Origin: Turnera subulata
Taxonomy: Eukaryota > Streptophyta > Magnoliopsida > Malpighiales > Passifloraceae
Length of the DNA: 64,000 nt
Direction of reading: 5' to 3'
Assembly: GCA_028386065.3 (NCBI GenBank)
Contig: JAKUCV010005716.1
Span: forward strand, 65,708 to 129,707
The notes beneath the pieces are model-generated. The model was not told where the DNA came from. It saw nothing but the letters and a program-made list of their open reading frames with translations, and ran no database searches. Position 1 is the first letter of the stretch, and each line of letters begins with the position of its first letter. Made by a program: the position numbers and the translations under genes. Positions 16,239 to 59,019 of the stretch are shown here, one piece after another.

Positions 16239-16250
16239 TTTAAGCTAGGA

Positions 16251-20441: not shown

Positions 20442-20444
20442 GGG

Positions 20445-22147: not shown

Positions 22148-22167
22148 TCCCCAGCGAAGTCGCCAAT
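22148..22167 (-). other. B2 primer binding site (tRNA-Arg type)
   Basis: The minus strand reads TTGGCGACTTCGCTGGGGA just inside the 5' LTR. This is complementary, with one mismatch, to the 3' end of plant tRNA-Arg as I recall it (...CCCCAGCGGAGTCGCCA). Tat/Ogre elements are known to use tRNA-Arg. Confidence 0.65.
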
Positions 22168-23734: not shown

Positions 23735-23895
23735 GCTGGTTGTCTTTTCGTTCTCCTGGTGGAAGATTAGAGCTGGCTGCTTGCTCCTGGTTTGGGCCAT
23801 GCACCACCTGAAAACATCAAACTTGGAAAAAGAAAAGGGGTAAAATATAAAAAGCCTAATAAATCAAAAATAAAAAGCAAAAGAATTAAGCGCCA
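23735..23895 (-). other. Leader of element C
   Basis: Short C sequence left between its PBS and the point where B2 inserted. No feature beyond A-rich sequence. Confidence 0.7.
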
Positions 23896-36967: not shown

Positions 36968-38461
36968 TGATATGTGTGCATATCATATACTATTTTGGAG
37001 CATAAAATACCCCTTTGGCTAAGCATTTAGTTAAGATCATGCATGTTATTTATTGTTTTAGCTTATTTTTCACTAGTTTGGCTCCCACTTATAAATTTAT
37101 GCTTTCAGGTATCTTTTGTTGCAAAATAGCTTGATTTTTGAAGAATTGAAGTGCTCTGAAGAAATCTGGAGAGTTTGGAGCTAATTCGTGAAGATTTATT
37201 GACGATGAGTTTTCAACAGGCGTCACACCGTTGAAACCCGCAAACCAGAACCTGGAGCCTTAAAATCCATGCGACAGAAGGATTACTTGTTGGCCAATTA
37301 ATAAAGTGGCACTGACTTTGTTGCTACTTCTAAGGAAATAAAAGGGATTTTTGCTGCGCCTAAAAGAGGGAAAATTCCTAGGATATTAATTCCTACATTT
37401 TAGTTGTCTTGGCTAGAATCTAGGAATTTATGTCTAGGGTTGTGCTACAATTAAAAGGGAATCGACAGCAGCAAAAAGGGGGAATTTTCTCTGGCTTTTT
37501 GGTCGACAACTGCTGGTGGAGAAGAAGCTCTCAACTATATTTTCTTTTTCTCTTCCTAGTTTTCAGTTTGTATTATGAACAAATCCTCCATTGTTATTTT
37601 GTTTCTAGCTATGAATTAAACTCTCTTTTCTAGGTCAAGAGGGATGTAGCTACTTGATTTTTTTAAGGATTATAGCCTTTTTTCATCTCTGTGTTAAACC
37701 ATAAAGTTCAAAGTCATCCTTGTATTGACCAACCTTTTTCATCTCTGTGCTAAACCATAAAGTTCAAAGTCATCCTTGTATTGGTTTTGGTCTATTTTCA
37801 TCCCTCTGTCTATGGGTTTTGGTTTGTTTTCATCCCTCTAAATAGGCCAAAAAGTCGAACACAAGGATGAAAATAAGACAAATTTCACAAATAGAGGGAT
37901 GAAAGCAAGCCAAAATCTAGTAGAGGGATGACTTCCAACTTTGAGGTCTAATACAAGGATAAAAAAACACTTTATTCCATTTCTTTTATGGTTTAGTTAC
38001 TCCTCAAGCAACTTTTCTTATTCGTGTTATTGATTGATTTGTGTGTGCTTTATTCAAGGTTAGAGACTGTCCATCTTTAGTTCTTGCTTTAGGATTTAAA
38101 TCAAGTACCGACAGGTGAAGTTTAATTCTGGAAAAACACAAATCAACCTTAATCTAGAGACTGAAAGGTAATAGATTATTGTGGAATTAGTAACAACACA
38201 AAACATCATTGCTCTTAGGAATAGGTTTGATCCACGACAGTGGTAAGGTCGACATCTGAAACGAAATTATACCTCCAAAGGTCGATAATTTCACCCTAGG
38301 TTGTTACCCATCAAGAAAACGAATAGAAAGTTGTAGGTTTTTTAGCGAACAGTGTCGCCCCGTTCGCAGACACGGAACAGAGTCACCCTGTTAGCAGAAT
38401 CTGGAGGATAGTTAGGGCATAAACAGATAGAGTAGTGAACCCCGATTGTTCTAGACCTTCC
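36968..38461 (+). repeat. 5' LTR of element D, first part
   Basis: Begins TGATATGTGTGC, as does 63533, and the two copies align up to the end of the window (for example TTATTTATTGTTTTAGCTTA and CATGCGACAGAAGGATTACT). Element B interrupts it at 38462; it resumes at 59020. It holds D-type palindromes at 37209, 38347 and 38375 and a small foldback element at 37676-37970. Confidence 0.87.
37676..37970. mobile_element. Small foldback element inside the D LTR
   Basis: The left half has CTGTGTTAAACCATAAAGTT and CAAAGTCATCCTTGTATTG twice (a tandem copy 58 bp apart); the right half has TACAAGGATAAAAAAAC, AAAGTTGG reversed and GAGGGATGAAA motifs, giving an imperfect palindrome. Exact ends and TSD are uncertain. 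Confidence 0.6.
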
Positions 38462-39662
38462 TGTGAACACCCAAATTTGACCCACGAATTTTCTACTAGA
38501 ATTAGATTTTAACATACTTGAACCTGGAATTGAGGAGATGATTCAATCTTAGGATTAAGACATGTCATGAATTTAACTTAGTAGAAATGATGTATTTTGG
38601 TAATTTAGACCTTCATGTATTTTAAGTTTAGGGTTAATGAGATGATTTAATCTTACAATAAAATATATAATGAGGTTTCTCTAGGCTGGAATATATCATT
38701 TGGGCCATTTATCTATTCCTTAATCCAAGTATATTGAGATGATTTATTCTTGGGTTAATAATAGGTGTAAGGGCCCAAGTTAACTCTTCAGAGTTTGATT
38801 AGCCTACTAACACAATTCTTGCAGATTAATTTTAGCTTTGATTTTCGTAGAAAATCAGAGTTAAATCATCATTTAAGTAGATTTTGTAGTCTTGGTATGA
38901 TTTTGCTTAAAATGGGTGTCAATATATAATCAATCAGTCTAAGAATGATTTAGGGGAGTGGTGATCAAGTAATTGAGTGATTCTGGGCTAATTAGGGGTT
39001 AATTACGCGGTAGGATCAAGTTAGAGCTGAATTAGGGGGATTGGGGGTCAAAAAAAGGAAAGAAAGAGTGACACACGGGGTGACCAGCGGTCCTCTCGCG
39101 ACGACCACAGGTGCTGGAAGTCTTCCTCACATGACCGCCGGCACTGGTGGTCATCCAGAGCATGACCGCCGGCAGCGGTGGTCATAGGCGCCTAGAACCC
39201 CCGATTTTCTCCGATTTTGTTTCTAACTCGATCCTACGCGGTTTTGGACCAGATTTTGGGCATAATCTTCACCATTAAGTAGGTCCACGCCCCTAGGCTT
39301 CCCAAAACACTATAAATAGGACCCCTCACACACATTTCAATAGACACACAATTTTTCTCACATATGCACCCATAAGCCTTGAGTGCTTGGAGAAACTCTA
39401 CCTCTCCAAGTCTATAGACACATTTTTAGGCAGAAACTCTGGAGAAATTTTGTGGGAGGCATCAATAGTAGTCCAACAAAGAAGAGTTAAGAAGAGGATC
39501 AACCATTGAGCATAGAAGTGGAAAGATGGTGGGTGTAGAACTCAACCCATTGCAAGAAGCTAGAGGAGAGCTACAAGAGGTAATACTAAACCTTATCTTT
39601 GTTGATTATATGCAGACGCTTTTGACGACGTAAGTGGACGATTTGTGCCATGTTTAGAACTA
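38462..39662 (+). repeat. 5' LTR of B, missing its 3' end
   Basis: Aligns with 57424-58632 of the 3' LTR, then stops at TTTAGAACTAC and passes directly into gag at ATGAAGAGGAAGG. TATAAATA is at 39311-39318, with GACCGCC-type palindromes at 39085-39190 upstream. The last 380 bp of the LTR, the PBS and the gag start are deleted. Confidence 0.88.
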
Positions 39663-40620
39663 CCATGAAGAGGAAGGAAGATGACTGGAACTTGGACCAC
39701 TTATCCCTGTTCCCCTATGCTCGGCTGCCTGAAAAATTCAAAATGCCCGATATTGAGAAGTTCAACGAGACGGGGTGCCCTACAACCCACCTAAAGATCT
39801 ATGTGAGGATGCTGCAGCCCATAGGGCTAGGACCAGAGCTGATGGTTCAACTATTCCAAAGGACTTTATCGGGGGTGGCCTTGAAGTGGTTCAAGACCTT
39901 GGATGAAAGTAAGGTGAGTAAATGGGATGACATCTGCAGAGAGTTTGTAAACCAGTACAGTTATAATACCGAAGTAGATGTCACCAAGAGGGATCTTGAG
40001 ACAACCAAGCAGGAGGCTCAAGAGACCTTCTCTGCCTATATCTCAAGATGGCGCGGCAAGGCATCATTGATGGTAAATAGGCCTACTAAAGACGACCAAG
40101 TGCAAATGGTGATCAAGAATCTCCAACCAGCTTACTATGATCGCATGGTTGGAAACTACTATGCAAACTTCAAGACACTTATCGGCCTGGGATACAATTG
40201 GAGGATGCTAAGTACTCTGTGGATGCCCCCTCGTCCAGGAGAAACTTTAATATGTCTCAAGGAAAAAGGTTTGCTGAGGTGAACCATGTTGCCATCCAGG
40301 CACCACTACAGAATGGATCAAAGCCCGGGGATTTTACTCCTCTCCCTATGTCCTTGGGGAAGATGCTCAAGAAATGCATGGAGAAGGGCTTGCTCCAGCC
40401 TTTGGACCCAAAGCTCGATCTGCCTCTCAGAGGAGACCCTAACAAGTTCTGTGAATTCCATCAGATGGCTGGGCATATTACTAATAATTGCCCCCGACTT
40501 CGCCACGAAATTTAGGATATGATAGAGAGGAATGAAATAATCCTACCCAAGAGGCCCAACACCAGGCTGTATCCACTACCCTTACACGAGGAGATTGATA
40601 TGATAGAGGCAGAGCCCAGA
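39663..40620 (+). pseudogene. B gag, N-terminally deleted
   Basis: Begins in frame at MKRKEDDWNLDHLSLF, which corresponds to about residue 82 of B2 gag. Conserved blocks: LPEKFKMPDIEKFNETGCP, LKIYVRMLQPIGLGPEL, FQRTLSGVALKWFKTLDESK and QETFSAYISRWRGKASLMV. A frameshift near 40190 and a TAG at 40513-40515 (HEI*DMIE, Gln in B2) break it. A zinc-knuckle-like FCEFHQMAGHITNNCPRL lies at about 40450-40500. The ATG at 39650 is LTR-derived and would add a few foreign residues. Confidence 0.83.
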
Positions 40621-41982
40621 CACCTGAACTTGAATGCTTTGTACTTGACCTTAGTGAGTATGTAGATTTAGATGAGGAAGTTGATGTCATCACCAGATCT
40701 AGAAGGATAGCAAGGAGAGCTCCTCTCCATTTAGATGAACCTGAAGAAGATATGATAGTTAAGCAGTTGAAGAAGACTGAGGCAAACATTCAATTTGGGG
40801 TCTACTAATGGCCTCACATCCGCATCGGGAGAAGGTCCTTTAATTAAACAAAGTCCAGGTCCCTATTGACACTGCACCAGAGACATTAGCCAACATGATA
40901 GCCTCTGTGGAAACTGATAATCAAATATCCTTCTCCGATAAGGATTTGCGCCCGGACAGGGGAATTCATGTTGAGGCATTGTACATCACCATCCAAGTCA
41001 AAGATAACCAAGTACCCTTGGTACTGATAGACAATGGATCGACTTTGAATGTATGTCCCTTAAAAACTTCAAGCTTGTTGGGATTTGGGGCTACAGATTT
41101 CTTACCGTCTCGAACAATCGTCAGGGCATATGACAATGCTCGAAGGGAATTTCTAGGGATGATAAAATTGGAAGTGACCATCGGCCCTGCTCCTTTTGTG
41201 ATAGAATTCCAAGTGGTTGACATCGCATCCAGCTTTAACTTGCTTCTTGGGAGACCCTGGTTGCATCAAGCCCGAGCTGTAACGTCCACTTTGCATCAAA
41301 TGCTATGGTTTCCTTATCAAGGAGAGATAGTCACGATCAAAGGGCAGACGGTGAGAAGAATGTCAAGCCAGTATTCAGGATTGAAGGGGACGAGGAGGTG
41401 TCATTATCGGGTTTTGTCTTTGAGCCCGTCGGTGCTATAATAACAGACAAGCTGGTTTGCAAACCGCCTTATTACGACCCTTTCAGTAATGTGGCAGTCA
41501 TAGGGACCATGGAAAAGATGAGGTATTTTTCAATCATGGGGCTGGGAAAAAGACAACAAGGGATATTAGAGACCCTCCTAATTTCAAAAGCCACACCACC
41601 TTTTGGTTTGGGATACACTCGAACCTCAATGGATTTGGAGAAGCAAAGGGAGAATAACCATGCAAGGGCATTAGCTCGGAAGAAGAATCAAGAGTGGGAC
41701 TTCCCGATGAACCCCTATTTCAAGACACTGAATGGCTATTTTATGAAAGAAGGGGAAGACTTTCCTTTTTGTGGATTTCCTGAACCATGGGTAAGCAATG
41801 TCACAAAAGTTAGGAAGCCGAGATTTGAGCTATTTTTTACTGTTATCCAGAAGAAGTGGAGGATCCAGAAGAAGGAGAGGAAAGGGGTGAAGAGGAAGAA
41901 GATTTTGGTTGCAAACATCTCTTTGATGAAGACAGGGCAATTTGAAGAGACGGGTGTTGGTCTACACTGGGTGCCTAGCTGA
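40621..41982 (+). pseudogene. B protease and G-patch-like region
   Basis: The protease block is at 40895-41440: IHVEALYITIQVKDNQVPLV, active site LIDNGSTLNVCPLKTSSLLG, FLPSRTIVRAYDNARREFLG and SSFNLLLGRPWLHQARAVTS. An overlapping frame, 41305-41982, continues FEPVGAIITDKLVCKPPYYD, YFSIMGLGKRQQGIL (G-patch-like), FGLGYTRTSMDLEKQ, EWDFPMNPYFKTLNGYF and DFPFCGFPEPWV. The frame then ends; nothing resembling RT follows. In complete Ogre-type elements the RT begins soon after such a region, so the loss of pol is shared by B and B2. Confidence 0.8.
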
Positions 41983-42593: not shown

Positions 42594-43922
42594 TCAATTC
42601 TTCTTGTGCTTCTTCCGACTCGACTCGCCCTCTTCATCTTTGCCTTTTCTGATGGGACATTCAGGAGACTCAAATCCTGGAGGCGCAGGTCCTTTTAGAA
42701 ACGCCTCCCTTGAAAGACGCAAAGATCACTCTGAAGGAGCCACATCCTTCTTCAACCATTCTAAGTAGGGCGTAGGAGGATGAATCTCAAAATGACTGCC
42801 AATTAGTTCCCTTAAAGGCAAAGCCTAACCTCCCTTAATGGGTTTCAGAGTAGTAGCCTTCATAGGACCGGTGACCGGAATGGGGATATCAGATGGAATT
42901 GTTTGGTTTATGCTAAATTGCCTTAGTATCCTCCTCGAATGATAATATGTGGACTTTTCTACACCCGGGAGTGATACCCAATCCCTGCACACAGAACACA
43001 TGACCATTTCTTGCATTTCGAGCCACCGGCAGAACCACGTGATTTGTGGGGCTTCAAGAACCTTCATGTAGGTAATCCATCCTCGAACAGTATGGAAGAA
43101 AATGGCATAACCCCGACTGACAAAGTTTGTGGGATCAGCTCGAGGACGATCAATCAATGTAAGGTGTTCACATAGCCACATCTGTAAGAAGAGGGGAGAT
43201 CACTATAACAAAATGGGAAGGGGAAAAGGACGGTAATCAAAGAAAAGACGGTCAAATATATGTACCTGGAGTAGCAGAGGGGAACCAGTCAATGGGGCAT
43301 TGTGATTGTCGGCCAGCGCATCCAAGCAATGGAAGGTCTCGCCCAATATCACAGGGGTCAAGCACTTTTCACCAAAAAGCCTAGCCACTAGCGCATCAAC
43401 CTGGAGGGGGCAAACACCAGGGGATCCTACCAAGAGGAATTCCCGTACAATCACAAGGACAAGGGCATGATTACGTTCCTCTCTCCAACCGAAGTCCTTC
43501 TCCTTGCAATATTGTTCTGAGCCGCCAAGGAAGTATCGATCCATGATCTTTGTTAGCTCCAGGTGATTATTTTGATTCATGAAGAAGCGGGCCTGACCTT
43601 CTATTAGAAAGAGGAATTTGCTCACTTCCTTCAGGATAGCATCATCAAGGGAAACCATTGCAACACCCTTTATGAATTTAGCGTTTAAGAAGGTGTTGAA
43701 TTCATCAACAGTAGGACACAGCTCTATCATGCCCTGCCCGAAACGGAATACACAGCGACTCTTGTCCCAAAATTTGGCATCAGGGTGAATCAGATTTTCG
43801 TTTATCACCACACCACGAAGCATGAACAATCTGGAAAAGCCCAGCACCGCGAAGTCTATGCGACATACAGGGGGAACACTCGCCATCCACTTCAGCACTT
43901 TAGCATGGAAATCCTCGCTCAT
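42594..43922 (-). pseudogene. B antisense ORF (DUF7745/plant-mobile-domain-like)
   Basis: ATG at 43922; exon 1 to 43266 (219 codons), intron 43182-43265, exon 2 from 43181 in phase 0. Exon 1: VCRIDFAVLGFSRLFMLRG, FWDKSRCVFRFGQGMIELCP, NAKFIKGVAMVSLDDAI, ALVARLFGEKCLTPVILGET. Exon 2: MWLCEHLTLIDRPRADP, WFCRWLEMQEMVMC, ILRQFSINQTIPSDIPIPVT. A TAG at 42825-42827 replaces a Trp that B2 keeps (KGGWALPL); beyond it the homologous frame runs to a stop at 42594 after a basic tail. Exon 1 is fully open. Tat-lineage elements are known to carry extra ORFs, some antisense; the product's role is unknown. The domain name is my judgement. Confidence 0.72.
43182..43265 (-). other. Intron in the B antisense gene
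   Basis: Minus strand: CTCCAG|GTACATATAT ... CTTCTTACAG|ATGTGG. Length 84 bp, GT-AG, with a pyrimidine-rich 3' end. The B2 counterpart is at 17599-17684. Confidence 0.8.
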
Positions 43923-43986
43923 GGTTGCCCTAGATGTGTTTGATATGTTATGACGAATTACGAGGATCTCTAGGTACCCAGGTGCT

Positions 43987-43994: not shown

Positions 43995-44089
43995 CTATTT
44001 TAGGGTCGGCAAAATTCGTGAAAACCCTAAAAGCCCAAGTCCAAAAGCCAAAAAGGAAGTTCCAGGGGCACACGACCGCCACTGCCGGC

Positions 44090-44349
44090 GGTCATCCCCC
44101 CACAAGACCGCCCGGTCGATGGCACAGAATGAAACACCCGTGTCCCAATTTTACAATTAAAATACTTATTCAAAAGGAATTTACCAAAATGCCCCTGAAA
44201 CCCGGGACACGAAATCCAAGGTCATCCCCCCACATGACCGCCCGGTCGCTGGCACAGAATGAAACACCCGTGTCCCAATTTTACAATTAAAATACTTATT
44301 CAAAAAGAATTTACCAAAATGCCCCTGAAACCCGGGACACAAAATCCAA
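44090..44349. repeat. 130-bp tandem duplication across an LTR/flank junction
   Basis: GGTCATCCCCCCACA-GACC starts at 44090 and again at 44220. Each unit contains 40 bp of B sequence followed by the first 90 bp of the A LTR (TGAAACACCCG at 44130 and 44260). The second LTR start continues into the full LTR. Confidence 0.9.
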
Positions 44350-44996
44350 TGCCAAAACATTTTCTGAAATTCTTAATAAATCGAGATGTCATATGGAACA
44401 AAACAAACCGGCTAACAAAGCCATAAGTCAACCCGACATCCTGCCGAAACAACATAAATTATCAAATCCCGGCATCCCGCCGATAAAGCAATCAAAATCA
44501 ATAATGACATCTCAACAAAATCCAACGCAGCAGAAGAAATAGTCAAAGTAAAAACAAGAGAAGTAAAATGATATGCATGTCGACTATATGGATCCAACCA
44601 GGCGATGAAGCACAACTACCTGCTGGGATATCCACGTCCGTACTCCGAAAAGGAAGAAAGAGACTACACGCTATCTAAGAGTCTGAAAAACAACGGTGGT
44701 GATTAAGTGAGTCGCCTACTCAGTGAGCAGTATAAATCTAGTTATGTAGGTGTGCAAAGCAAGTTCGAAAGGAAGGTAGAGAAACAAGACAAGTATGCAA
44801 ATACACAATAACCAGTACTAACATGCCAGCTACATACAACCAAACAGTTTATGTTTTACATCCGTTTGTGTGTTAAGTTTTTTTTATTATATTTATTATT
44901 CAGGGCCCCCTATTGTGTGCGTCGAGCTCGGTCCCGTCTCATGAGACAACCAGGGCATAAGCCCAAAATAACCAGGCACATGGCCCAAATATCACC

Positions 44997-45032
<36 letters not shown>

Positions 45033-47369
45033 GGAGGTAGAAAGGAGGGAGGTAGAAACCGGTCATCACAGACCCATATGCTAAACCGCGTATACCATGC
45101 TATCCCGCATGCAAACCCGAGGGGTATCACTTCCCGCTCGAACCAACCGATCATCAGCACATTGTAGCCTATCTTCTACTGTACTTTATACTTGTTCATT
45201 AATTATGAGTTCATATGTGCCAAGAGTTGTGATTTAACAGGGTTGTGTGAATTATCAACTCAATCAAGTATCCGGGTCTCCGACCCACAGTACATCACAC
45301 AAATCACCCAAAATCACTCCATATGTTATATTCCATAACAATCTAAAAGTCATGCTCATCCAGCAAATAGTATCACATAGGCACACAATACGGATCACAG
45401 CATGTTAGCAACAAGGCATGCAACTCAAACAGACCAATCAAACAAGCACATACATACAAACACAAAAAGATTTACAAAGTCACCTCAACGACGATTATCC
45501 TGTGGAGCTTTCCCCAAGACAGATCCTCCAGCTCCCGAGGTATTACCCGTGCTTGAATACCGGCATACACAAATATTATAAAACAATTATCACAAACCGT
45601 GCATGCGTGATACCTATATGCTCAACTGTGTGAAACCTGACCCCAACTACCCGATTATGCAAATTCCCGGGTCTAAGCCCAAAAGGGTATATCTCCTCTC
45701 TAAAGACTCCAAAAGATAAGGACTTAAAGTTAACCGAGCTTAAGCTCATCAAAACCCAAAACGATTTCTCGGCCTAAAGCCCACTACCCCAAGTCTGCAA
45801 TTATCCCAATTTAAGAATTTGGGCTTAAAGCCCATTCCTTAAAGTCCATAACGAGTCCCCGGGCCTAAAGCCCATCTAAGTCCAAAACCGAATCCCGGGC
45901 CTAAAGCCCTTTATGAAGTTGGCCTCAAAGCCCGTTACCCAAGTTCAAAGGTTAAACGGTTAAGTCATTGGGCCTCAAGCCCATATCTTAAGGTCCATCA
46001 AGTCTCAAGGTCATTAAAGTCAGTTAGTTGGGCATGGGCCTGGTTTTGTCTAAATACCGCTCTAAGGTCATTCCCGAGCCCAAGTGTTCCCGGCCTATGG
46101 TTTTACCCGTGTCGGTGAATTTCTCGGCCACACACTCTCTCACCCTCACACACGGTTTCCACTAAATCTCGGTAATTCCCGATACAACAATTATACCCAC
46201 GTTAAATATTACATGCCATGAATGAGAAATTAAGTACATAACATCATCGGAAACAATACCAAGATTTGCCGAGGGAACAACCCGTCTTGTCGGAAATTTT
46301 CTGCCTTGTCGGAACCGAACCCGAGCCCACGTCGGAAAATTCTCGAGCCTCACCGGATTCCGGTCACCTTGCCGAAAAGTTCATAGCAACAACCCAAGCA
46401 ACTCCAGCAATCTGTCGAACCCCGAACGACCAACAAGTAACCAAACCAATCAACACCATGGATACACAACCCAAAGCAAATCCGAAATAGAAAAGAGGGG
46501 CCGGAATCTTACCGGAAAACCAAAATTCGGAACCGTGAGCACTGCCTTGGTAATACCTGCACCACGCCCCACCGTCCACGGTGCAACAACCAAACTACAA
46601 AACACCGCCGGCGATCCAAACAGGAGCAACAACACAAGACACCATCAACACCCATAAAACGAAATCAAACTCGATTAGGACAACTCGGCCCAACGAGTAC
46701 AGGGAAAGGAAAAAGAAGAAGGAAGAGGAGGCAAGGTCGGGTTTACCAGTGCAGGCGGCGACGACGACGGCCCTCGACCTCGCGATTTTCGCCCAACACG
46801 ACGCCTCGAAGCCAACCTCTCCACACGATTCAGCGGCGACGGTCCAACCCCAAAAGACGTTGGCGGAGCGTGGGTGTGATTGAGGGTGAAGACAAAGGTG
46901 GTGGCGGTGATGTGTGGAGGTTTGAGGAAGAGAGAGTCAACGAGAGAGAGAGAGACAAGGGGGAAGGAAGATGGGAGCGGCGGCCAAAGGAGGAAAGGGA
47001 AGGAAAAGAAAAAAAAATAAGAGAAGAAAAGAAGAGGTCGGGCTAGGGTTTGGCCGCCCTAGTGGACGACCTGTCGTTCCACTTAGGCGCGGTCAACCCC
47101 CCCTGCCTGGTCAACGCGTCCTTTTTTTTTCACTGTTTCAAAACTACGTAGTTTCGATTGAAACAAGGATAAACTTCGCGTTTCACCCCGATCTCGAACC
47201 CGCTTTGCACCGAACACGAACCAAGAGCAATTCCATCTCCAAATTGACAATTCCTAAGAAAATAATTTATTTTTCCTTAGCCAAAAACTCGGAAATTTCT
47301 CGAGGGTAAAATTGGAATAAAAATTCCGAAAATTCCATAAATTAAATTATGAAAATCCGGGGCGTTACA
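44260..47369 (-). repeat. 3' LTR of element A
   Basis: TGAAACACCCG to GGGGCGTTACA. It includes an AG microsatellite (44999-45027), a perfect GTCTCATGAGAC palindrome (44935-44946) and six GGGCYTAAAGCCC-type motifs (45768-45982). Long frames at 46450-46883 are low-complexity LTR sequence. Confidence 0.92.
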
Positions 47370-47385
47370 ATTCTACCCCACTTAA
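47370..47385 (-). other. Polypurine tract of element A
   Basis: AAGTGGGGTAGAAT on the minus strand directly before the LTR start TGTAACGCC. Confidence 0.75.
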
Positions 47386-47420
47386 GAAAATTTTGTCATC
47401 GAAATTACAAGGTATGAAAA

Positions 47421-49238
47421 TCAGAACAGATGTGGATACTACTCTCTCATATTGGACTCAACCTCCCAAGTAGCCTCATTCGGAGAATGACGGCTCCATC
47501 TAACCCGAACCATAGGAATGGTACGACTCCTCAACTACCGCACCTCTTGAGCCAAAATCTCCACTAGCTCCTCAACATAGGTCAAATCCTCAGAAACCTC
47601 CACCTCTGTCGGGGATACAACATGACTAGGATCAGATCTATAATGCCTCGACTTCGAAATATGGAATACATCATGTATGCGCGACAGCTCCTCCGGTAAA
47701 GCCAACCTGTAGGCCAGCGGACCAATCCGCTCCATGATCTCATAAGGGCCAATATAACGAGGGCTCAACTTGCCCTTCCTCCCAAACCGGATAACACCTC
47801 TCCAGGGAGCAACATGGAGGAAAACCCTGTCACCTACATTGTACTCCATCTCCCGACGATGCTTATCAGAAAAACTCTTTTGTCGGTCCTGAGCAGCTCT
47901 CATGCACTGCTTAACCACCTCGATCTGATCAACAGTCTCCTGGACTAGGTCCGGACCAACCACCTGTCTCAGACCATCCTCATCCCAACAAATCGGACTA
48001 CGACACTTCCGTCCACACAAATCCTCATAAGGCGCCATACCGATACTGGAATGATACCCGTTGATATAAGCAAACTCAACCAACGGTAATGTCTCATCCC
48101 AAGAACCACTGAAATTGAGCACACAAGCTCTAAGCATATCCTCTAGCGTCTGTATAGTCCTCTCCGACTGCCCATCGGTCTTCGGATGGAATGCAGTGCT
48201 GAAATTCAGCTTAGTACCCAAAGCTGACTGTAAGCTCTTCCAAAAGTGGGAAGTAAACCTCGGATCCCTGTCCGACACAATGGATAGTGGAACTCCATGT
48301 AGATGGACAATACCCGAAACATATAACCTCGCCAGCTTATCCATTGTATCCGTCTGCTGAATCAGTAGGAAATGAGCTGACTTGGTCAACCTGTCAGCAA
48401 TGACCCAGATGGCATCATGTCGACCCCGGGTCCTCAGTAACCCGATCAGAAAGTCCATAGTGATATGCTCCCACTTCCACTGCGGAATAGTCAAAGATCT
48501 CAACTTGCCGGCAGGAGCCTGATGCTCGGCTTTCACCTGCTGACAAGTCATACAACGAGCCACAAACTCCGCAACATCCTTCTTCATCCCGGACCACCAA
48601 TAATGACTCTTCAAGTTCGGGTACATTTTGGTGCTACCCGGATGCATAGCATATGGCGTATTATGTGCTTCATCCATGATCCATCTCCTCAAATCATCGA
48701 CATCCGGAACACACAACCGATCACCGGTCATCAAGGCACCATCCTCCCGGACATAGAAACTAGAACTCTCTCCACCGAGAGCCTTATCCCGCAACTCCGT
48801 TGGATGAGGATCACCATACTGAAACTCCATGATCTTATCCCGCAAGGTCGACCGGATACTCAAACTGGCAAGCAACGCCCCAGTAACATCCACCTCCAAC
48901 TGTGCATCCAACGACCTCAGCTCCACCAGGGAAGGCAAAGCATAAGAAACTGAGTCCTCATCCGCAGAAGCCACTCTCTTCTGGCTCAACGCATCCGCAA
49001 CAACATTGGCCTTGCCCGGATGGTACTCGATAGTACAGTCATAATCCTTCAGAAGCTCAATCCAGCGTCTCTGCCTCATATTAAGCTCCCTTTGGGACAT
49101 GATGTACTTCAAACTCTTGTGATCCGTGAAAATCCGACACTTCTCACCGTACAGATGGTGTCTCCAGATTTTCAAAGCAAAGACCACAGCAGCTAACTCC
49201 AGATCATGGGTCGGATAGTTCCTCTCGTGAGTTCTCAA
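47421..49238 (-). pseudogene. A pol: RNase H end, integrase, chromodomain
   Basis: From 49238 down: the RNase H end has [19 protein letters not shown] and [12 protein letters not shown]. The integrase zinc finger has HPGSTKMY and [14 protein letters not shown] (HHCC). The core shows all three acidic positions: [25 protein letters not shown] and [17 protein letters not shown]. The C-terminus is [20 protein letters not shown] and VHDVFHIS-like ([13 protein letters not shown]), then a chromodomain ending EATWEVESNMRE. Stops at 47535-47537 (EVR*LRSR) and near 47439 (MRE*YPHL) both replace Gln seen in A2. It is the best-preserved integrase in the window. The natural end is the TGA at 47421. Confidence 0.92.
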
Positions 49239-50972
49239 CTACCTGGAGGCATAAGCAATCACCCGACCCTTCTGCATCAAAACACATCCCAAGCCCAAAC
49301 CAGAAGCATCACTGAACATCGTGTACTCCACTCCGGGTCTCGGAACAGTCAAAACCGGTGCAGAAGTCAACCGACTCTTCAACTCCTCAAAACTCTTCTG
49401 ACAACGGTCATCCCAAACAAAAGTACAGTCTTTCCTCAATAGCTTGGTCATGGGACCCGCTATTAAGGAAAAACCCTCAATGAACCTCCGGTAGTAACCA
49501 GCAAGTCCAAGAAAACTCCGTATCTTCGATACACTCTTCGGTGGCTCCCAATCCATGACTGCCTTATTCTTGGTCGGGTCCACCTTAATGCCCTCACCGG
49601 ACACAATATGCCCAAGAAACGCGACCTCATCCAACCAAAACTCACACTTGCTGAGCTTGGCATAGAATTGTTCTTCTCTCAACCTCTGCAAAACTTGTCT
49701 CAAGTGGTCCTCATGTTCGGCCTTACTACTCGAGTAGACCAGAATATCATCAATGAACACTACCACAAACCGGTCCAGAAATTCATGAAAGACCTGTTGC
49801 ATCATACACATGAACATAGCCGGTGTATTCGTCAGCCCAAATTGAACAACCACAAACTCATAATGACCATACCGAGTGCGGAATGCAGTCTTTGGTATGT
49901 CTTGTTCTGCAATCCGAACCTGATGGTAACCAGATCGCAAGTCGATCTTCGAGAATACGGATGCACCCTGCAACTGATCGAATAAGTCATCGATCCTAAG
50001 CAAAGGATACTTGTTCTTCACAGACACCTTGTTCAACTACCTATAGTCCACACACATCCGCATACTGCCATCCTTCTTCTTCACAAACAAAACCGGGGCA
50101 CCCCAAGGTGAGATGCTCGGTCTACTGAAACCCTTGTCCAACAACTCCTTCAGTTGTTTCTTCAACTCTAGAAGTTCTGTCGGAGCCATTCTGTAGGGCG
50201 GTATAGAAATAGGTGCAACTCCTGGTACCAAGTCAACTGTGTACTCCACCTCCCGCTCCGGAGGCAACCCAGGTAGATCATCAGGAAACACATCCGGAAA
50301 CTCTCGAACAATTAGAATATCCTCCACTCCAGGTACTGGTACCGAAGAATCGACCACATGAGCTAGAAAAGCATCACAACCCTCTCGGGTCATCCTGAAA
50401 GCCTGGATGGCCGAGATACAACAAGCCGATAGGGCTCTTCGCTCTTCAACGAACACCACTCTACGCCCCAACAGAGAAGCCAAAGACACTTCCCTGGCCC
50501 GACAATCAACTACTGCCTGGTGTCTGGATAACCAATCCATGCCTAAACTAACATCAAACTCTCCCAAGTCCATGACAGCAAGATCAGAAGGAAAACTCTC
50601 AGTATCATACTCTATCGATACATCTCTACAAACTCGATCAACCACAACTATATCACCTGTGGGTAAACGGACTCTCAAGGGTCTACTAAGTTTATCATCA
50701 TCTATGTTATGAGTGGTCATAAATGCACGTGATACAAAAGAGTGTGTTGAACCTGGATCAACTAAAGCAGGTGCATACTGACCAAAAACCATAAATGTAC
50801 CTGCTATAACCTCTGGAGTATCAGCAGCCTCCTCACGGGTGATAGCATAAACCCTAGGAGCTGTAGTAGACTGAGTCGCACCCCCGCGGTTCGGAGCTCC
50901 AGAACCCCCACGACCACGACCCTGCTGTCCGCCACCCCTATTCGGACCAGAAGAGACAGCACCACTAGCCAT
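49239..50972 (-). pseudogene. A protease, RT and RNase H start
   Basis: From 50972 down: Arg/Gly-rich linker, protease [16 protein letters not shown] (DPGS active site), [15 protein letters not shown], then the RT start [19 protein letters not shown] and [29 protein letters not shown] at 50037-50039 interrupts DYR*LNKV. RT continues [30 protein letters not shown] sequence, [11 protein letters not shown] (catalytic DD) and [20 protein letters not shown]. RNase H begins [17 protein letters not shown]; a second TAG at 49239-49241 follows YASR. Apart from the two stops the frame is open. Confidence 0.92.
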
Positions 50973-52113
50973 AGAACTCTATACTGTATACTGGGAACCA
51001 CTACCACCACTATCCTTAATCCACTTGTAGCAAGATGACTTCTGGTGTCCCGGCTTATTGTAATACCAGCATGTACCCAGGAATCGTGCTGAGAAACCCC
51101 ATCCCTGAGATCCAGACTGATAGGACCGTCCTCCCGAGGATCTGCCTGGTCCACCCTGATAGCTCTGCCCTCGGGACTTCTTCAAACCTAGGTAAGAAGA
51201 ACCCTGTCCACCGGAATAATCTGCACCTCCGGCATCAGAATACTACCTCTTCTGTCCTGAAGCAGATGACTGCTTCCTCTGCTCGGCTGTCCGAGCCTCC
51301 TTCCGAATCAACTGCACTCTCTCAGCATCAAAAGCAGCCTCACAAACTGCCTCCCAAGTCTTGTGCCCTTTACCAGCCACAGCTAACGCCAACTCTGTAC
51401 GTAAGCCGTTAACAAACCGCCTACACTTAGTCACCTCATCGGGCACAAAACTCTCTAGCATAAGAGAGAAGGATGCTGAACCGGATCCTGAATGCTGATA
51501 CAGACTCTTCTAGTCCCTGCTTCACCTCAAGAAACTGCTTCTTCTGCTCCTCTAGAAAACCAACAGTGAGAAACTCATTGTAGAATTTCTCCTTGAAATC
51601 CTCCCATGGCATCTCCACAGGCTTCTGTAGGTTGGCCACAAGTTCCTGCCACCATGTCAATGCATATCCCGAGAACTTGTGTGCCGCAAATCAAGCCCTC
51701 TGCTCAGGTGCACAAGTGAACTTCTCCAGAACATTCTCCACCTTGCGAAACCAATCATCAAACTCCTTGTCTTTACCCTCTTCACCAGAGAATTCCTTAA
51801 CTGCAGACTTATCCATGTGTTTGTAACCACTCTCCATACCACCTGCCGCAGTAGGTGCTACCGGTTAGGCACCCTGCTGCTGCTGCTGGAATTGCTGGAA
51901 CTGTTGCCACTGCAAGAAAGCCTGATACTGCTGGAACGCTGGGTCCACAACAGGTGGTACGGGTGGCACAACGTTCTGTTCTCCTCCACCTGCAGCATTA
52001 TTCCCTGCTGCATTATTGTTCCCCTGACCAACGGGAACCTGCATCACCGACACATTGTCGGAGACATAAGTAGCGGCGTCATCCTCAACATTGTGCTGCC
52101 CCTGGTGATCCAT
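50973..52113 (-). pseudogene. A gag, multiply broken
   Basis: ATG at 52113 (MDHQGQHNVEDDAATYVSDN, NVSVMQVPVGQ), a Gln-rich stretch, then pieces in shifting frames: WWQELVANLQKPVEMPWEDF and KEKFYNEFL (capsid-like), [29 protein letters not shown] frames and SARFLGTCWYYNKPGHQKSS. The zinc knuckle reads C-W-Y-Y-N-K-P-G-H-X4-C: the second Cys is Tyr, one transition away. A TAG after SQYTV near 50978 separates it from the protease frame. Decay is heavier here than in pol. Confidence 0.82.
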
Positions 52114-52259
52114 ATCAACAGCTATATGAATGCAAATGAGTCAAAAACACTTTTAAAGTCATAAATCCGGAAACAGGCTTAAACACAGAATTCACTTTGA
52201 AAACAAGGTTTAAAACACTTTTAAAACCAAGGATCTGAAGCCTGCTCCACTACCAAGCT
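52114..52259 (-). other. Leader and PBS of element A
   Basis: Next to the LTR the minus strand reads GCTTGGTAGTGGAGCAGGC, a decayed form of the initiator-tRNA-Met site (TGGTATCAGAGC) usual in chromoviruses. The rest is untranslated leader. Confidence 0.6.
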
Positions 52260-52997
52260 GAAACACCCGTGTCCTAATTATACAAATAAAATACTTATTC
52301 AAAAGGAATTTACCAAAACGCCCCAGAAACCCGGGACACGAAATCCAATGCCAAAACATTATTTGAAATTATTAATAAACCGAGATGTCATAAGGAACAA
52401 AACAAACCGGCTAACAAAGCCATAAGTCAACCCGGCATCCTGCCGAAACATCATCAAATATCAAATCCCGGCATCCCGCCGATAAAGCATTCAAAACCAA
52501 TAATGACATCTCAACAAAATCCAACGCAGCGGAAGAAATAATCAAAGTAAAAACAAGAGAAGTAAAATGATATGCATGTCGACTCTATGGATCCAACCGG
52601 GAGATGAAGCACAGCTACCTGCTGGGATATCCTCGTCCGTACTCCGAAAAGGAAGAAAGAGACTGCACGCTATCTAAGAGTCTGAAAAACAACGGTGGCG
52701 ATTATGTGAGTCGCCTACTCAGTGAGCAGTATAAATCTAGTTATGTAGGTGTGCAAAGCAAGTTCGAAAGGAAGGTAGAGAAACAAGACAAGTATGCAAA
52801 CACACAATAACCAGTACTAACATGCTAGCTACATACAAGCAAACAGTTTATGTTTTACTTCCGTTTGTGTGTTAAGTTTTTTTTATTATATTTATTATTC
52901 AGTGCCCCCTACTGTGTGCGTCGAGCTCGGTCCCATCTCATGAGACAACCAGGGCATAAGCGCAAAATAACCAGGCACATGGCCCAAATATCACCAT

Positions 52998-53033
<36 letters not shown>

Positions 53034-55371
53034 GGGAGGTAGAAACCTGTCATCACAGACCTATATACTAAACTGCATATACCATGCCATCCCACATGCA
53101 AACCCGAGGGGTATCACTTCCCGCTCGAACCAACCAGTCATCAGCACACAGTAGCCTATCTTCTACTGTACTTTATACTTGTTCATTAATTATGAGTTCA
53201 TGTGTGCCAAGAGTTGTGATTTAACAGGGTTGTGTGAATTATCAACTCAATCAAGTATCCGGGTCTCCGACCCACAGTACATCACACAAATCACCCAAAA
53301 TCACTCCACATGTTATATTCCATAACAATCTAAAAGTCATGCTCATCCAGCAAATAGTATCACATAGGCACACAATACGGATCACAGCAGGTTAGCAACA
53401 AGGCATGCAACTCAAACAGACCAACCAAACAAGCACATGCATACAAGCATAAAAAGACTTACAAAGTCACCTCAACGACGATTATCCTGTGGAGCTTTCC
53501 CCAAGACAGATCCTCCAGCTCTCAAGGTATTATCCGTGCCTGAATACCGGCACACAAATATTACAAAACAATTATCACAAACCGTGCATGCACGATACCT
53601 ATATGCTCAACTGTGTGAAACCTGACCCAAACTACCCGATTATGCAAATTCCCGGGTCTAAGCCCAAAAGGGTATATCTCCTCTCTAAAGACTCCAAAAG
53701 ATAAGGACTTAAAGTTAACCGAGCTTAAGCTCATCAAAACCCAAAATGATTTCTCGGCCTAAAGCCCACTACCACAAGTCTACAATTATCCCAATTTAAG
53801 AATTTGGGCTTAAAGCCCATTCCTTAAAGTCCATAACGAGTCCCCGGGCCTAAAGCCCATCTATGTCCAAAACCGAATCCCGGGCCTAAAGCCCATTGTG
53901 AAGTTGGGCTCAAAGCCCGTTACCCAAGTCCAAAGGTTAAACGGTTAAGTCATTGGGCCTCAAGCCCATATCTTAAGGTCCATCAAGTCTCAAGGTCGTT
54001 AAAGTCAGTTAGTTGGGCCTGGGCCCGGTTTTGTCAAATACCGCTCTAAGGTCATTCTCGAGCCCAAGTGTTCCCGGCCTATGGTTTTACCCGTGTCGGT
54101 GAATTTCCCGGCCACACACTCTCTCACCCTCACACACGGTTTCCACTAAATCTCGATAATTCCCGATACTACAATTATACCCACGTTAAATATTACATGC
54201 CATGAATGAGAAATTAAGTACATAACATCATCGGAAACAATACCAAGATTTGCCGAGGGAACAACCCGTCTTGCCAGAAATTTTCTGCCTTGTCGGAACC
54301 GAACCCGAACCCACGCTGAAAAATTCCCAAGCCTCGCCGGAAAATTCCCGAGCCTCGCCGGATTCCGGTCACCTTGCCGGAAAGTTCACAGCAACAACCC
54401 AAGCAACTCCAGCAATCTGTCGAACCCCTAACGACCAGCAAGTAACCAAACCAATCAACACCACGGATACATAACCCAAAGCAAATCCGAAATAGAAAAG
54501 AGGGGCCGGAATCTTATCGGAAAACCAAAATTCGGAACCGTGAGCACTGCCTTGGTAATCCCAGCACCACGCCCCACCGTCCACGCCGCAACAACCACCA
54601 ACAACAACCAAACTACAAAACACCGCCGGCGATCCAAACCAGAGCAACAACACAAGACACCATCAACACCCATAAAACGAAATCAAACTCGATTAGGACA
54701 AATCGGCCCAACGAGTACAGGGAAAGGAAAAAGAAGAAGGAAGAGGAGGCAAGGTGAGGCTTACCAGTGCAGGCGGCGACGACGACGGCCCTCAACCTCG
54801 CGATTTCCGCCCAACACGACGCCTCGAAGCCAACCTCTCCACACGATGGAGCGGCGACGATCCAACCCCAAAAGACGATGGCAGAGCGTGGGTGTGATTG
54901 AGGGTGAAGACAAAGGTGGAGGCGACGATGTGTGAAGGTTTGAGGAAGAGAGAGTCAACGAGAGAGATAGAGACAAGGGGGAAGGAAGATGGGAGCGGCG
55001 GCCAAAGGAGGAAAGGGATGGAAAAGAAAAAAAAAAGAAAAGAAGAGAAGAAAAGAAGAGGTCGGGCTAGGGTTTGGCCGCCTTAGGCGCGGTCAACCCC
55101 CCCTGCCTGGTCAACGCGTCCTTTTTTTTTTTCACTGTTTCAAAACTACGTAGTTTCGATTGAAACAAGGATAAACTTCGCGTTTCACCCCGATCTCGAA
55201 CCCGCTTTGCACCGAACTCGAACCAAGAGCAATTCCAACTCCAAATTGACAATTCCTAAGAAAATAATTTATTTTTCCTTAACCAAAAACTCGGAAATTC
55301 CTCGAGGGTAAAATTGGAATAAAAATTCTGAAAATTCCATAAATAAAGTTATAAAAATCCGGGGCGTTACA
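52260..55371 (-). repeat. 5' LTR of element A
   Basis: Same ends as the other copy; AG microsatellite at 53000-53028 and GGGCYTAAAGCCC motifs at 53757-53970. Frames such as 54540-54935 lie in LTR and are not genes. Confidence 0.92.
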
Positions 55372-55376
55372 TAGAA

Positions 55377-56987
55377 CCGCTCGGAAAATTTTAAAAAATT
55401 GGGGATAGGGAGTGATAAAAAGAAAAAGAGGGAAAAAAAAGGTTACACCCGTTTACTGAATCAAATTATTCACCAAGATATGGGGCATCTGTTGGCTTTT
55501 ACTTGAATTTGCAATGATAAATGTTCTGTATGTGAGCAATGTCAGGCGCGCACAACTTATCAGGCCTTAATGCATAGTGGGGGCACGACATCCCCACTCT
55601 CGATTCTCAGAGGAGGGATGAGCCCGTCCTTCATTGAATGTCATGAGGAAACACCCGAAGCTAACCAATAGAATAGGGACACATTAAACTCCGCCTCTCA
55701 AATCATGGCGAGATACTAGGGGTATCACACCCCACTTTTGGCTTGTATGTCTCGAGGGGCACAACACACTTATTGTGATTCTCAAATCCAGTAAATAGGG
55801 ACAGGGCATCCAGACAGCCTAATTGTGAGACATCACCTCTTCTTAAACCTGAGAGATTATGAGGGAACCAAAAATACCAATAATCCAGACACATCCAACC
55901 CAAACCCGAGAATGTGAGGAACCTAGAAGTGAGGCAACCAGACCATGAGATGACACCTAGACGTGAGACACCCAAAGACAAGAGGAACCCAGTTAGGAGA
56001 GTCCAATCAAAAGCTAAAGATCTAGTCTTTGCAACCCTAAGAGAACCCAGCTAACCAGACCACTATCCTTCGCCAAGAGATGAGAAGACCCAGCCGATAG
56101 ATAGATGAGAGAATCCATCTAAAAGCCGATAACTCCGTTATCGCAACCCGAGTTCAGAGAGGAACCAATCCTAAAGCTGGGACCCAGCACCCGCAAATCG
56201 AAAGATGAGAGGATCTAAACGAGAGAAAAACCTTGAGGGAACCCAGCCAGAAGAGAGAAAACCAGTCAACCCAGTCAGAAGCCAAAGACCTAGTCTTTAC
56301 AAACCGGAGAGATAAGGGAGTCCAGCCAAAAGCCAAAGACCAGGTCTTTGCACCCCAAAAGAGAACCATTAAACTCGTGAGATGAGCGAGTGCAAACCAA
56401 TAAGAGAATGAGAGAGCAGGGGATACCCACAGGTTAGACAACCGAGCCATGAGAGAAAACCCGAGGACCCGATCCTTACAAACCTTGAGAGGAGCCAAAA
56501 CAAAGCAACCACGAGACAAGAGAGAACCTTGAGTGAATCCGGACCTTGAGAGAATTAGGAGAATTGGACCCAGCTCCTGCAGACCATGAGAGAAAGAAAA
56601 CCAGATGTGAAGGAACCCAGATGGGGGAAAATCATGAGAGGGGAGAGAAAAACTAGATATGAGGGAAGCTAGGGAAAACCGTGAGGGGGTCCAGAAGCGA
56701 GGGATCCAGACATAAGGAAAACCAGTAAGCCAAGAACCCAGCCCTTGCAAACCCAAGATGAAGGAACCCAGAAGAGGGAAAACCGTGAGGGGGTCCAGAT
56801 GCGAGGGATCCAGATATAAGGAAAACCAGTAAACCAAGAACCCAGCCCTTGCAAACCCAAGATGACCAGACCTTGAGACATACAAGTCAGAAGCTGGGAA
56901 CCCGGTTCTCGCAATAAGGAAACCAGACAAAAGCCGTGTACCCAGTACCGGCAAAACCAAAGCCGAGGACCTGATTCTCGCAAACCC
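55377..56987 (+). repeat. B 3' UTR, first hairpin-rich repeat region
   Basis: A purine-rich region of loose repeats built from GAGGAACCCAG, ATGAGAGAA and AAAAGCC...GCAAACC words. Variable hairpins sit between AAAAGCC and GCAAACC: 56016-56030, 56128-56142, 56176-56188, 56284-56298, 56335-56349, 56465-56477, 56898-56908, 56938-56948 and 56964-56980. A 104-bp tandem duplication is at 56671-56774/56775-56868. The long minus-strand frame 56154-56960 encodes only repetitive sequence. Variable tandem repeats in the 3' UTR are known in plant Tat-lineage elements. Confidence 0.85.
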
Positions 56988-57305
56988 TGGGATAAGATGA
57001 TTCCCAAAGACCGAATGTTGAATATCCAGATGATATGGATGAGATGATTCTTTGTCAACAACCCGATAGATGAGATGATTCTATCGCCCCGGGATGAGAT
57101 GATTCTCGGAATCCATAGCTTGGGATGAGATGATTCCCAAACAGAATCCAGCCGACAAGGATGAGATGATTCCTTGTCAACAACCTAATAGATGAGATGA
57201 TTCTATCGCCTCGGGATGAGATGATTCCCGAAAACCTGGGATGAGATGATTCCCGGAATCCGAGGGCCAGTCCCTCAAAACTTCAGGATGAGATGACTCC
57301 TGAAG
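56988..57305 (+). repeat. Array of ten TGAGATGAT-loop hairpins
   Basis: Loops at 56993, 57040, 57071, 57095, 57126, 57162, 57193, 57217, 57242 and 57289 read TGAGATGAT (first TAAGATGAT, last TGAGATGAC). The arms pair and differ: TGGGA/TCCCA, CGATAGA/TCTATCG, CCGGGA/TCTCGG, TTGGGA/TCCCAA, GACAAGGA/TCCTTGTC, ATAGA/TCTAT, TCGGGA/TCCCGA, CTGGGA/TCCCGG and CTTCAGGA/TCCTGAAG. Only the 57040 copy pairs poorly. Confidence 0.95.
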
Positions 57306-57423: not shown

Positions 57424-59014
57424 TGTGAACACCCAAATTTGACCCACGAATTTTCTACTAGAATTAGATTTTAACATACTTGAACCTGGAATTGAGGAGA
57501 TGATTTAATCTTAGGATTAAGACATGCCATGAATTTAACTTAGTAGAAATGATGTATTTTGGTAATTTAGACCTTCATGTATTTGAACTCTAGGGTTAAA
57601 GAGATGATTTAATCATAGAATAAAATACATAATAAGGTTTATTTAGGCTGGAATATATCATTTCGGCCTTTTATCTATTCCTTAATCCAAGTATATTGAG
57701 ATGAATTATTCCTGGGTTAAAAATAGGTTTAAGGGCCCAAGTTAACTCTTCAGAGTTTGATTAGCCCACTAACACAATTCTTGCAGATTAATTTAGCTCT
57801 GATTTTCGTGAAAATCAGAGTTAAATCATCATTTAAGTAGATTTTATGTTTTTGGTATGATTTTGCATAAAATGGGTATCAATGTGTAATAAATCAGTCT
57901 AGGAATGATTTAGGGGAGTGGTGATCAAGTAATTGAGTGATTTTGGGTTAATTAGGGGCTAATCATGCGGTAGCATCAAGTTAGAGCTGAATTAGGGGGA
58001 TTGGAGGTCAAAAAAAGGAAAGAACGAGTGACACATGGGGTGATCGGCGGTCCTCTCGCGACGACCGCCAGGTGCTGGCGGTCTTCCTCACATGACCGCC
58101 AGGATTGGGGGTCATCCAGAGCATGATCGCCGGCAGCGGCGGTCATAGGCGCCCAGAACCCCCGATTTTCTCCGATTTTGTTTCTAACTCGATCCTACGT
58201 GGTTTTGGACCAGATTTTCGGGCATAATCTTCCCAATTAAGTAGGTCCACGCCTCTAGGCTTTCCAGAACACTATAAATAGGACCCCTCACATATATTTC
58301 AATGGACACACAATTTCTCACATATACACCCTTAAGTCTTGAGTGCTTGGAGAAACTCTACCTCTCCAAGTCTATAGACACATTCTTAGGCAGAAACTCT
58401 GGAGAAATTTTGTGAGAGGCATCAACAGTAGTCCAGTAAGGAAGAGTCAAGAAGAGGATCAACCATTGAGCTTAGAAGTGGAAAGAAGGTGGGTCTAGAA
58501 CTCAACCCATTGCAAGGAGCTAGAGGAGGGCTACAAGAGATAACACTAATCCTTCTTTTGTTTGATCTTTGTTGATTATATGATGATGCTTTTGATGATG
58601 TAAGTGGCCAATTTTTGCCATATTTAGAACTACGTGGATTTGACCCTGGTCACTCGGGTACGTAGGTAGTCTCGGTTTTACAACGGGATGCAAGCCAAAT
58701 CTTCTTCTTCTTCCCCATTCTTTTATTTTCTACACTTGCACACTTGCACAAGGCACACTTGCATTTTGTAATTGCACATAGTCTCGACCCAACACGGATG
58801 GGTGCCTAACACCTTCTCATCTGTGACGAACTTCCGATCCCATGACTTTGGTTCGCCATGACCATGTAGCCTAAAGGAGTCACATGAAGCTTTTTCCCAA
58901 GTTTCGTCCTTAATAAAATTTGGGTGGCGACTCCAACATCATGGGATTAACCCGAGGAAGAAGGTGAAAGGATTAGGTGAATAGGCCCAAGTGATTTTGG
59001 GTCGGGTATTCACA
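57424..59014 (+). repeat. 3' LTR of B (1.59 kb)
   Basis: TGTGAACACCC to GGTATTCACA. It has TATAAATA at 58273-58280, a GACCGCC-aggtgct-GGCGGTC hairpin at 58063-58083 with further copies to 58145, and TGAGATGA-type motifs near the start (57495, 57600 and 57700 approximately). It is the full reference LTR for this family. Confidence 0.92.
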
Positions 59015-59019
59015 CTTCC

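Follow-up and report, generated by a model that had tools for sequence, protein, structure and literature searches.

Hairpins with near-constant loops and covarying stems near the 3' end of an LTR retrotransposon in Turnera subulata

We analyzed a stretch of 64,000 nucleotides from the plant Turnera subulata (contig JAKUCV010005716.1, positions 65,708 to 129,707; here called the window), in which some two dozen small hairpins are found close to the 3' end of a plant-type long terminal repeat (LTR) retrotransposon. The loop letters of these hairpins are nearly constant, whereas many of their stem letters change in matched pairs. There are two hairpin families, F1, with the nine-nucleotide loop TGAGATGAT, and F2, just upstream of it, and the F1 loop is found again at the tips of longer stem-loops in the LTR (Table 1). 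The F1 array is located in the 3' untranslated part of the element, which is itself split by a nested element. A preliminary description of this DNA had already placed the array there, and the LTRs, the target site duplication (TSD) and a Gag reading frame bear this out. The borders of the element read CTTCC/TGTGAA on the left and TTCACA/CTTCC on the right, that is, TG...CA LTR ends and a 5-bp TSD as in LTR retrotransposons, and because both LTRs are flanked by CTTCC the F1 array lies inside a single insertion (38457-59019).

The F1 loops can be read directly at 56993, 57040, 57071, 57095, 57126, 57162, 57193, 57217, 57242 and 57289. The preliminary description counted ten units with an invariant loop; the number is right, and the invariance holds for eight of them, while units 1 (TAAGATGAT) and 10 (TGAGATGAC) have one change each. 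TGAGATGAT occurs 13 times in the window against 0.95 expected, and the five sites beyond the array all fall within LTRs of this element family. A GA/TC core is kept by all ten units and forms with the loop a constant word of about 13 nt; the linkers between the hairpins are, by eye, rich in A and C. Counted from the loop outward, the runs of Watson–Crick (WC) pairs in units 1 to 10 are 5, 2, 7, 2, 6, 8, 5, 6, 4 and 8, and with G.U allowed they become 5, 3, 7, 6, 6, 8, 5, 6, 6 and 8, which gives at least four WC pairs at the loop in eight of the ten units and at least five pairs (WC and G.U) in nine. When the 3' arms were permuted among the units, none of 100,000 permutations reached the 53 WC pairs formed by the units' own arms (mean 31.4, maximum 52). 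The earlier statement that the arms differ from unit to unit and still pair is thus well beyond chance, with the qualification that the 5' arm is damaged in units 2 (57040) and 7 (57193) and that units 4 and 9 reach 6 bp only if G.U is allowed. It had also been asked whether random sites of the same loop pair equally well. Among 118 distinct TGAGATGAT sites from 50 unrelated loci, collected by paired-loop pattern searches, WC runs of 0, 1, 2, 3 and 4 pairs were found at 69, 43, 3, 1 and 2 sites, so that two reach four pairs and none more; of all nine-nucleotide loops in the window, about 0.5% reach four WC pairs.

The array did not arise without copying. Two blocks within it form an 88% identical direct repeat, which means that the F1 stems were copied in part by ordinary duplication; in an alignment, units 2-4 correspond to units 6-8 as block copies and unit 1 matches unit 5. 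The view that the stems are unlike duplication copies therefore holds in part: a four-hairpin block is duplicated, and there are about five independent stems and not ten. The paralogues can nevertheless differ in a paired way, as in units 4 and 8, where one position shows a double change from C-G to T-A and another a G.U against a G-C. Over the ten units, 83.8% of the cells are paired compared with 61.8% in shuffled controls, cells changed on both sides number 21 compared with 8.3, and the covariation score is 0.608 compared with 0.206, none of 500 shuffles reaching any of the three; with slid partners the score is 0.036-0.152. Column pair 4-22 takes four pair types without a failure in ten units.

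F2 is a second hairpin family with covarying arms. Its ten gap-free units start at 56009, 56121, 56277, 56328, 56456, 56725, 56829, 56889, 56929 and 56958, and a model built on them finds one weaker unit, its next matches having E values of 0.18 or more. On these ten hand-picked units (the sites 56175, 57262 and the F1-type hairpin at 56372 were left out) the share of paired cells is 85.7% and the covariation score 0.492; shuffles give 75.3% and 0.276, and 0/500 reach either value, while the count of further pair types (10) was matched by 134/500 shuffles. In a wider set of 15 pattern-chosen sites, four (55936, 56372, 56481 and 57326) are not F2-looking; the 14 unique sites of the set together form 60 WC pairs, compared with 38.1 on average and 54 at most after permutation (0/5000). 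The five outer pairs are complete (WC and G.U) in 7/10 F2 units and in none of eight sites (seven distinct), all unrelated, that were returned by a search with the F2 flank pattern and served as a control. By anchoring blindly on the F2 3' flank, at least five WC pairs are found at 5/17 sites, compared with 5.2% of all positions. The F2 3' flank also follows one outlying hairpin of F1 type (56373-56391), which indicates that F1 and F2 share their context.

It could be argued that all of these are meaningless inverted repeats, due to chance or to the composition of a tandem array rich in purines. The partial duplication of the units does inflate naive counts, and perfect hairpins in 55372-56950 alone number 13 against a shuffled mean of 8.7 and maximum of 17, which is no clear excess. 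Yet the permutation, slid-partner and unrelated-site controls fail to reproduce the pairing, and for the five non-redundant F1 stems (units 3, 5, 6, 8 and 10, hand-picked and all with intact arms) the true pairing ranks first among the 120 permutations (35 pairs; the next has 31). We consider this explanation extremely improbable.

The F1 loop returns in the LTRs. The 3' LTR has three loops (positions 74, 178 and 275), each one letter off TGAGATGAT, which lie upstream of TATAAATA at 58273 and are therefore presumably in U3; in the two other LTR copies the loop is exact at 2/3 sites (LTR at 38462) and 3/3 sites (minus-strand LTR). The 14-nt arms of the U3 loops in the 3' LTR pair at 12, 11 and 11 positions, and only 10/1558 positions of this LTR have at least 11/14 paired, the three loops among them. 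In the LTR at 38462 all three loops again reach at least 11/14, among 10/1166 positions. A consensus fold of the LTR copies predicts three abutting stem-loops with the shared loops at their tips, and in sense the U3 folds better than shuffles, with z scores of -4.6, -5.9 and -2.1 in the three copies; in its own minimum-energy fold, hairpin C of the 3' LTR has some of its loop letters paired. A covariance model trained on F1 gives three LTR sites as its best outside matches (E 4.5e-4, 0.027 and 0.032), scores that are aided by the shared loop letters alone; the other LTR sites are weak under this model (E 0.32 to 7.7, one unlisted).

One possible explanation of the covariation is a mechanism that rewrites both arms together: a nascent strand would snap back at the constant core and copy one arm from the other, and pairing would be a by-product of mutation. 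Such a process could be quasipalindrome correction or template switching, in the course of repair or of reverse transcription. The GA/TC core present in all ten F1 units could seed such a snap-back, and templated copying accounts for the paired change that separates units 4 and 8 no worse than selection does. However, arm rewriting by itself leaves the fixed loop letters unexplained, the U3 stems have many G.U pairs and some mismatches instead of perfect arms, and the process would be needed separately in two families with different loops. We find this explanation unlikely.

A reading that fits the data better, although we propose it tentatively and give it slightly less than an even chance, is that the array belongs to a cis-acting RNA region at the 3' end, in which selected stem-loops hold out a constant loop for a protein to bind, with Gag as a possible partner. 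The last kilobases of the genomic RNA would then contain about ten F2 triloop hairpins, ten to eleven F1 hairpins and three long U3 stem-loops. The loop would be read by a partner and the stem would merely present it, so that the stem letters would be free to change as long as pairing stays. If a partner reads the loop, one would expect near-constant loops, changeable paired stems, linkers like the A- and C-rich ones seen here and a return of the loop in the LTR. Most likely a protein would bind these loops many times over, and the element's own Gag, which has a zinc-knuckle-like stretch, would be the first candidate; we infer that such binding could select the RNA and pack it into particles. 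An alternative partner may be a host RNA-binding protein acting in export or stability. As for a loop-loop kissing partner elsewhere in the element, only 7-nt matches were found, one of which (AATCATC) is in all three LTRs.

Another idea is that the constant loop, kept open by its stem, serves host small RNAs as a target or acts as a decoy for them. The loop and core word indeed has ten copies in the array and recurs in the LTR. But the constant word is only about 13 nt long and the flanking stems differ, while plant small RNAs have 21-24 nt and exceed this word, which makes a small-RNA target very unlikely.

If the proposal of protein-read loops is extended to the whole region, the 'hypervariable' repeats of the 3' untranslated region (3'UTR) may be a selected modular RNA device with two hairpin alphabets (the loop TGAGATGAT and a triloop within ACCCAGT). 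Proteins would read the loops, the stems would drift under a pairing rule, and the device would be tied to the three same-loop stem-loops in U3; this we regard as possible but rather doubtful. If true, repeat number and stem sequence could vary without functional loss, which would explain a region that is hypervariable in its letters and yet kept. The constant-loop hairpins would then have a testable function as a candidate packaging or export signal of plant LTR retrotransposons, and some plant satellites would be predicted to descend from RNA hairpins. One element copy with several stems on one loop would also be a rich natural data set for covariation.

Several observations weigh against a selected, protein-read 3' region. 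In F1, six of eight pairs are changed on both sides, a count matched by 112/500 shuffles, and pairs have been lost in units 1, 2 and 7 relative to units 5, 6 and 3; some loss is expected, since the element has decayed after its insertion (aligned LTR parts are 91.5% identical). In F2, the number of double-change pairs (3) was matched by 360/500 shuffles, the region folds only modestly above shuffles (z -1.70, 1/20) and the mean stem probability is 0.30. In the 3' LTR, seven positions besides the three loops also reach 11/14, and the third (minus-strand) LTR reaches 11 at one of its three loops (8, 12, 10); in a single-sequence fold, hairpin A of that copy pairs part of its loop letters. Moreover, the arms can be swapped among the three U3 hairpins with little loss of pairing and no U3 pair is changed on both sides across the three copies, and from this we conclude that U3 shows structure and a shared loop but not covarying stems. 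The array is known from one copy only, the searches did not reach relatives, and it belongs to no known RNA family, Rfam having no match at gathering score in the 64 kb. Finally, retroviral packaging signals are usually near the 5' end.

The strand is a further point. When the whole array is folded to minimum energy, a hairpin with an open nine-nucleotide loop forms in 4/10 units in sense and in 8/10 in antisense, and in-stem G.U against A.C pairs number 12 to 10 over F1, F2 and one LTR, or 20 to 16 with all LTR copies, which gives no strand signal. The hairpins may act in an antisense RNA, perhaps as part of a leader for the antisense open reading frame (ORF) at 43203-43985, upstream of which the array lies on the minus strand, or in DNA, as cruciforms or regulator sites in U3 and the 3' part. 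The antisense array also folds better than shuffles (z -2.06, 2/100); the sense array, however, has the better score (z -2.83, 0/100). In local windows the mean F1 stem probability (11 units, WC pairs only) is higher in sense, 0.71 against 0.55, a gap that is due largely to the outlier at 56378 and to unit 4. The U3 is rich in sense G.U pairs, with G.U against A.C at 18 to 3, 19 to 1 and 18 to 8, although its structure was chosen by sense folding. In each of the three LTR copies the sense strand of U3 folds to the lower energy; corrected for shuffles, the antisense z scores are -4.0, -2.4 and -2.5, which differ clearly from those in sense in one copy only. We lean towards sense RNA as the active form and consider action through antisense RNA or DNA improbable.

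Hypervariable tandem repeats in the 3'UTR, also in copies without pol, have been described for Tat/Ogre elements (Macas 2009, as cited in PMC7004042), where their origin was put down to recombination or to strand transfer in replication and they were found to be a source of satellite DNA, including most satellites examined in Lathyrus sativus (PMC7004042). The duplications within our array are alike; the difference is that the units here are hairpins with near-fixed loops and covarying stems, and the main text of PMC7004042 contains neither 'hairpin' nor 'secondary structure'. Covarying hairpins in the 3'UTRs of plant LTR retrotransposons were not reported in the literature that we searched by titles and abstract beginnings, a scope that most subscription papers fall outside. 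While Tat 3'UTR repeats are already known, the F2 family and the same loop at LTR hairpins are added here. The closest working analogue may be packaging signals with a shared recognition motif: a common loop motif was described in several virus families, among them MS2, picornaviruses and hepatitis B virus, with several stem-loops per RNA and variable stems as in F1 and F2 (PMC6281560). Unlike those dispersed signals, the hairpins here are clustered in tandem at a retrotransposon 3' end and would be putative protein-binding sites. In mouse mammary tumour virus a purine loop, paired in the title of the report with the primer binding site, was reported to be critical for RNA selection by Gag (PMC8096270), but that is an animal retrovirus, and here the loops are at the 3' end of a plant element. 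The mitochondrial hairpin families RHE and DHE are also repeated and often in tandem, and sponge RHE have conserved stems and variable loops (PMC2800124). F1 is the reverse, with constant loops and variable stems, and thus is not of the RHE kind; loops more conserved than stems are said in the same source to be usual for structured RNAs.

Table 1. Hairpins, array blocks and host-element features in the window (coordinates of the window)
Feature	Position	Strand	Details
F1 array	56985..57305	+	ten hairpins, loop TGAGATGAT; 8 loops exact, 2 with one change
F1 unit 1	56988..57006	+	TGGGA[TAAGATGAT]TCCCA
F1 unit 3	57064..57086	+	CGATAGA[loop]TCTATCG
F1 unit 5	57120..57140	+	TTGGGA[loop]TCCCAA
F1 unit 6	57154..57178	+	GACAAGGA[loop]TCCTTGTC
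F1 unit 8	57211..57231	+	TCGGGA[loop]TCCCGA
F1 unit 10	57281..57305	+	CTTCAGGA[TGAGATGAC]TCCTGAAG
Duplicated block within F1	57024..57236	+	57024-57114 and 57146-57236, 88% identical direct repeat
Outlying F1-type hairpin	56373..56391	+	ACTCG[TGAGATGAG]CGAGT, then F2 3' flank GCAAACC
F2 hairpins	56009..56987	+	ten gap-free 30-nt units, consensus AAAAGCC-N5-ACCCAGT-N5'-GCAAACC
Weaker F2 unit	56172-56200	+	found by model of ten F2 units, E 0.021
F2-like hairpin	57262..57276	+	GAGGG[CCAGT]CCCTC, between F1 units 9 and 10
U3 stem-loop A	57454..57547	+	94 nt, loop GGAGATGAT (57496-57504) at tip
U3 stem-loop B	57548..57662	+	115 nt, loop AGAGATGAT (57600-57608) at tip
U3 stem-loop C	57663..57739	+	77 nt, loop TGAGATGAA (57697-57705) at tip
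3' LTR	57424..59014	+	TGTGAA...TTCACA, 1591 bp; TATAAATA at 58273; three AATAAA, one of them at 58912
5' LTR remnant (truncated)	38462..39663	+	loops 38534 (GGAGATGAT), 38638 and 38735 (exact)
TSD, left copy	38457..38461	+	CTTCC
TSD, right copy	59015..59019	+	CTTCC
Gag ORF piece	39626..40279	+	PF03732, E 9.9e-11
Protease-like ORF piece	40844..41437	+	LIDNGSTLNV, no Pfam match
Antisense extra ORF	43203..43985	-	260 aa; DUF7745 E 0.011, 15.2 bits, below cut-off 26
Nested LTR retrotransposon	44260..55371		LTRs 44260-47369 and 52259-55371 (3.1 kb); splits host element
LTR of second element copy	22165..23735	-	exact TGAGATGAT at 23652-23660, 23548-23556, 23451-23459

The host element is probably of Tat type and probably non-autonomous, as judged from its sequence features. 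Tat extra ORFs are often in reverse orientation, and the antisense ORF of this element, which has no match to PF10536 or PF04195, the domains named in PMC6317226, would fit this. So do the 3'UTR repeats, with nine direct-repeat families in 55840-57422, between the coding part and the 3' LTR. The preliminary suggestion of a Tat lineage agrees with these two features, but no domain of reverse transcriptase (RT), RNase H or its additional copy (aRH) was found that would allow placement. RT, RNase H and integrase were not found in the host element or in its second copy by Pfam searches, which covered 5/7 host-element ORFs, 4/5 second-copy ORFs and 20/35 window ORFs of at least 140 aa, or by tblastn with pieces of the nested element (best E 0.089). 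In the Tat lineage (Ogre/Retand) of Ty3/gypsy the polyprotein has a second RNase H domain, aRH, and the position and orientation of the extra ORF help to divide the clades (PMC6317226). Gag PF03732 is present in both copies of the element. In the host copy we take the CEFHQMAGHITNNC stretch of the overlapping ORF 40141-40515 (+) to be zinc-knuckle-like and LIDNGSTLNV to be a protease-like motif.

The second copy of the host element lies at 15400-23735 (-) and has lost nearly the first half of its 3' LTR; tggcgacttcgctgggga is found after its 5' LTR, at the expected position of the primer binding site. By loop count and by the F1 and F2 models, neither array was found in it. The nested element is flanked by CAGAA and TAGAA (one mismatch) and has ORFs for protease, RT, RNase H, integrase and SH3 on the minus strand, with a related stretch at 2935-5703. 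The LTRs contain further hairpins: one at 57784-57833 has 14 stacked pairs (one G.U) and follows the three GAGATGAT stem-loops, with similar words in the other two LTR copies. At E values up to 1, the only Rfam matches in 55372-59020 were three sub-threshold ones to microRNA models, at this same place. At 58046-58144, 16694-16793 and 44074-44112, in LTR sequence and close to the antisense ORF, neighbouring GGCGGTC and GACCGCC words form inverted repeats in which, contrary to F1, the arms are constant and the loops vary.

Relatives of the array were searched for outside the window. Paired-loop patterns gave nothing in a first search of viral contigs, 39 stretches in a further one and 11 stretches in genome contigs, none of them related-looking. 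When the 50 loci were screened for at least two exact loops per strand with arm pairing, two (L001 and L008) proved to be a bacterial TGATGA-type repeat without pairing and were rejected; besides these, at least 3 bp were seen only in L006 (one 3-bp case) and L010 (two 4-bp sites). L010 (2788-2840), a Bacilli contig from horse feces, has two GACGGA[TGAGATGAT]TCCGCGC sites 36 nt apart, and its pairing is probably coincidence or a repeat; the 118-site control has the same number of 4-bp cases. A search of viral contigs for Gag and a search with an LTR-start pattern returned none, and among the 23 matches of a Gag protein search 22 were environmental entries. The antisense translation of 56669-57181 gave 91 candidates in a protein search, none at E 10 or less, and ARAGORN in its bacterial setting found no tRNA. 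Elsewhere in the window, at 32698-33550, diverged short repeats with units of about 20 nt are grouped around AACATCGATGTT, and this cluster matches itself in both orientations.
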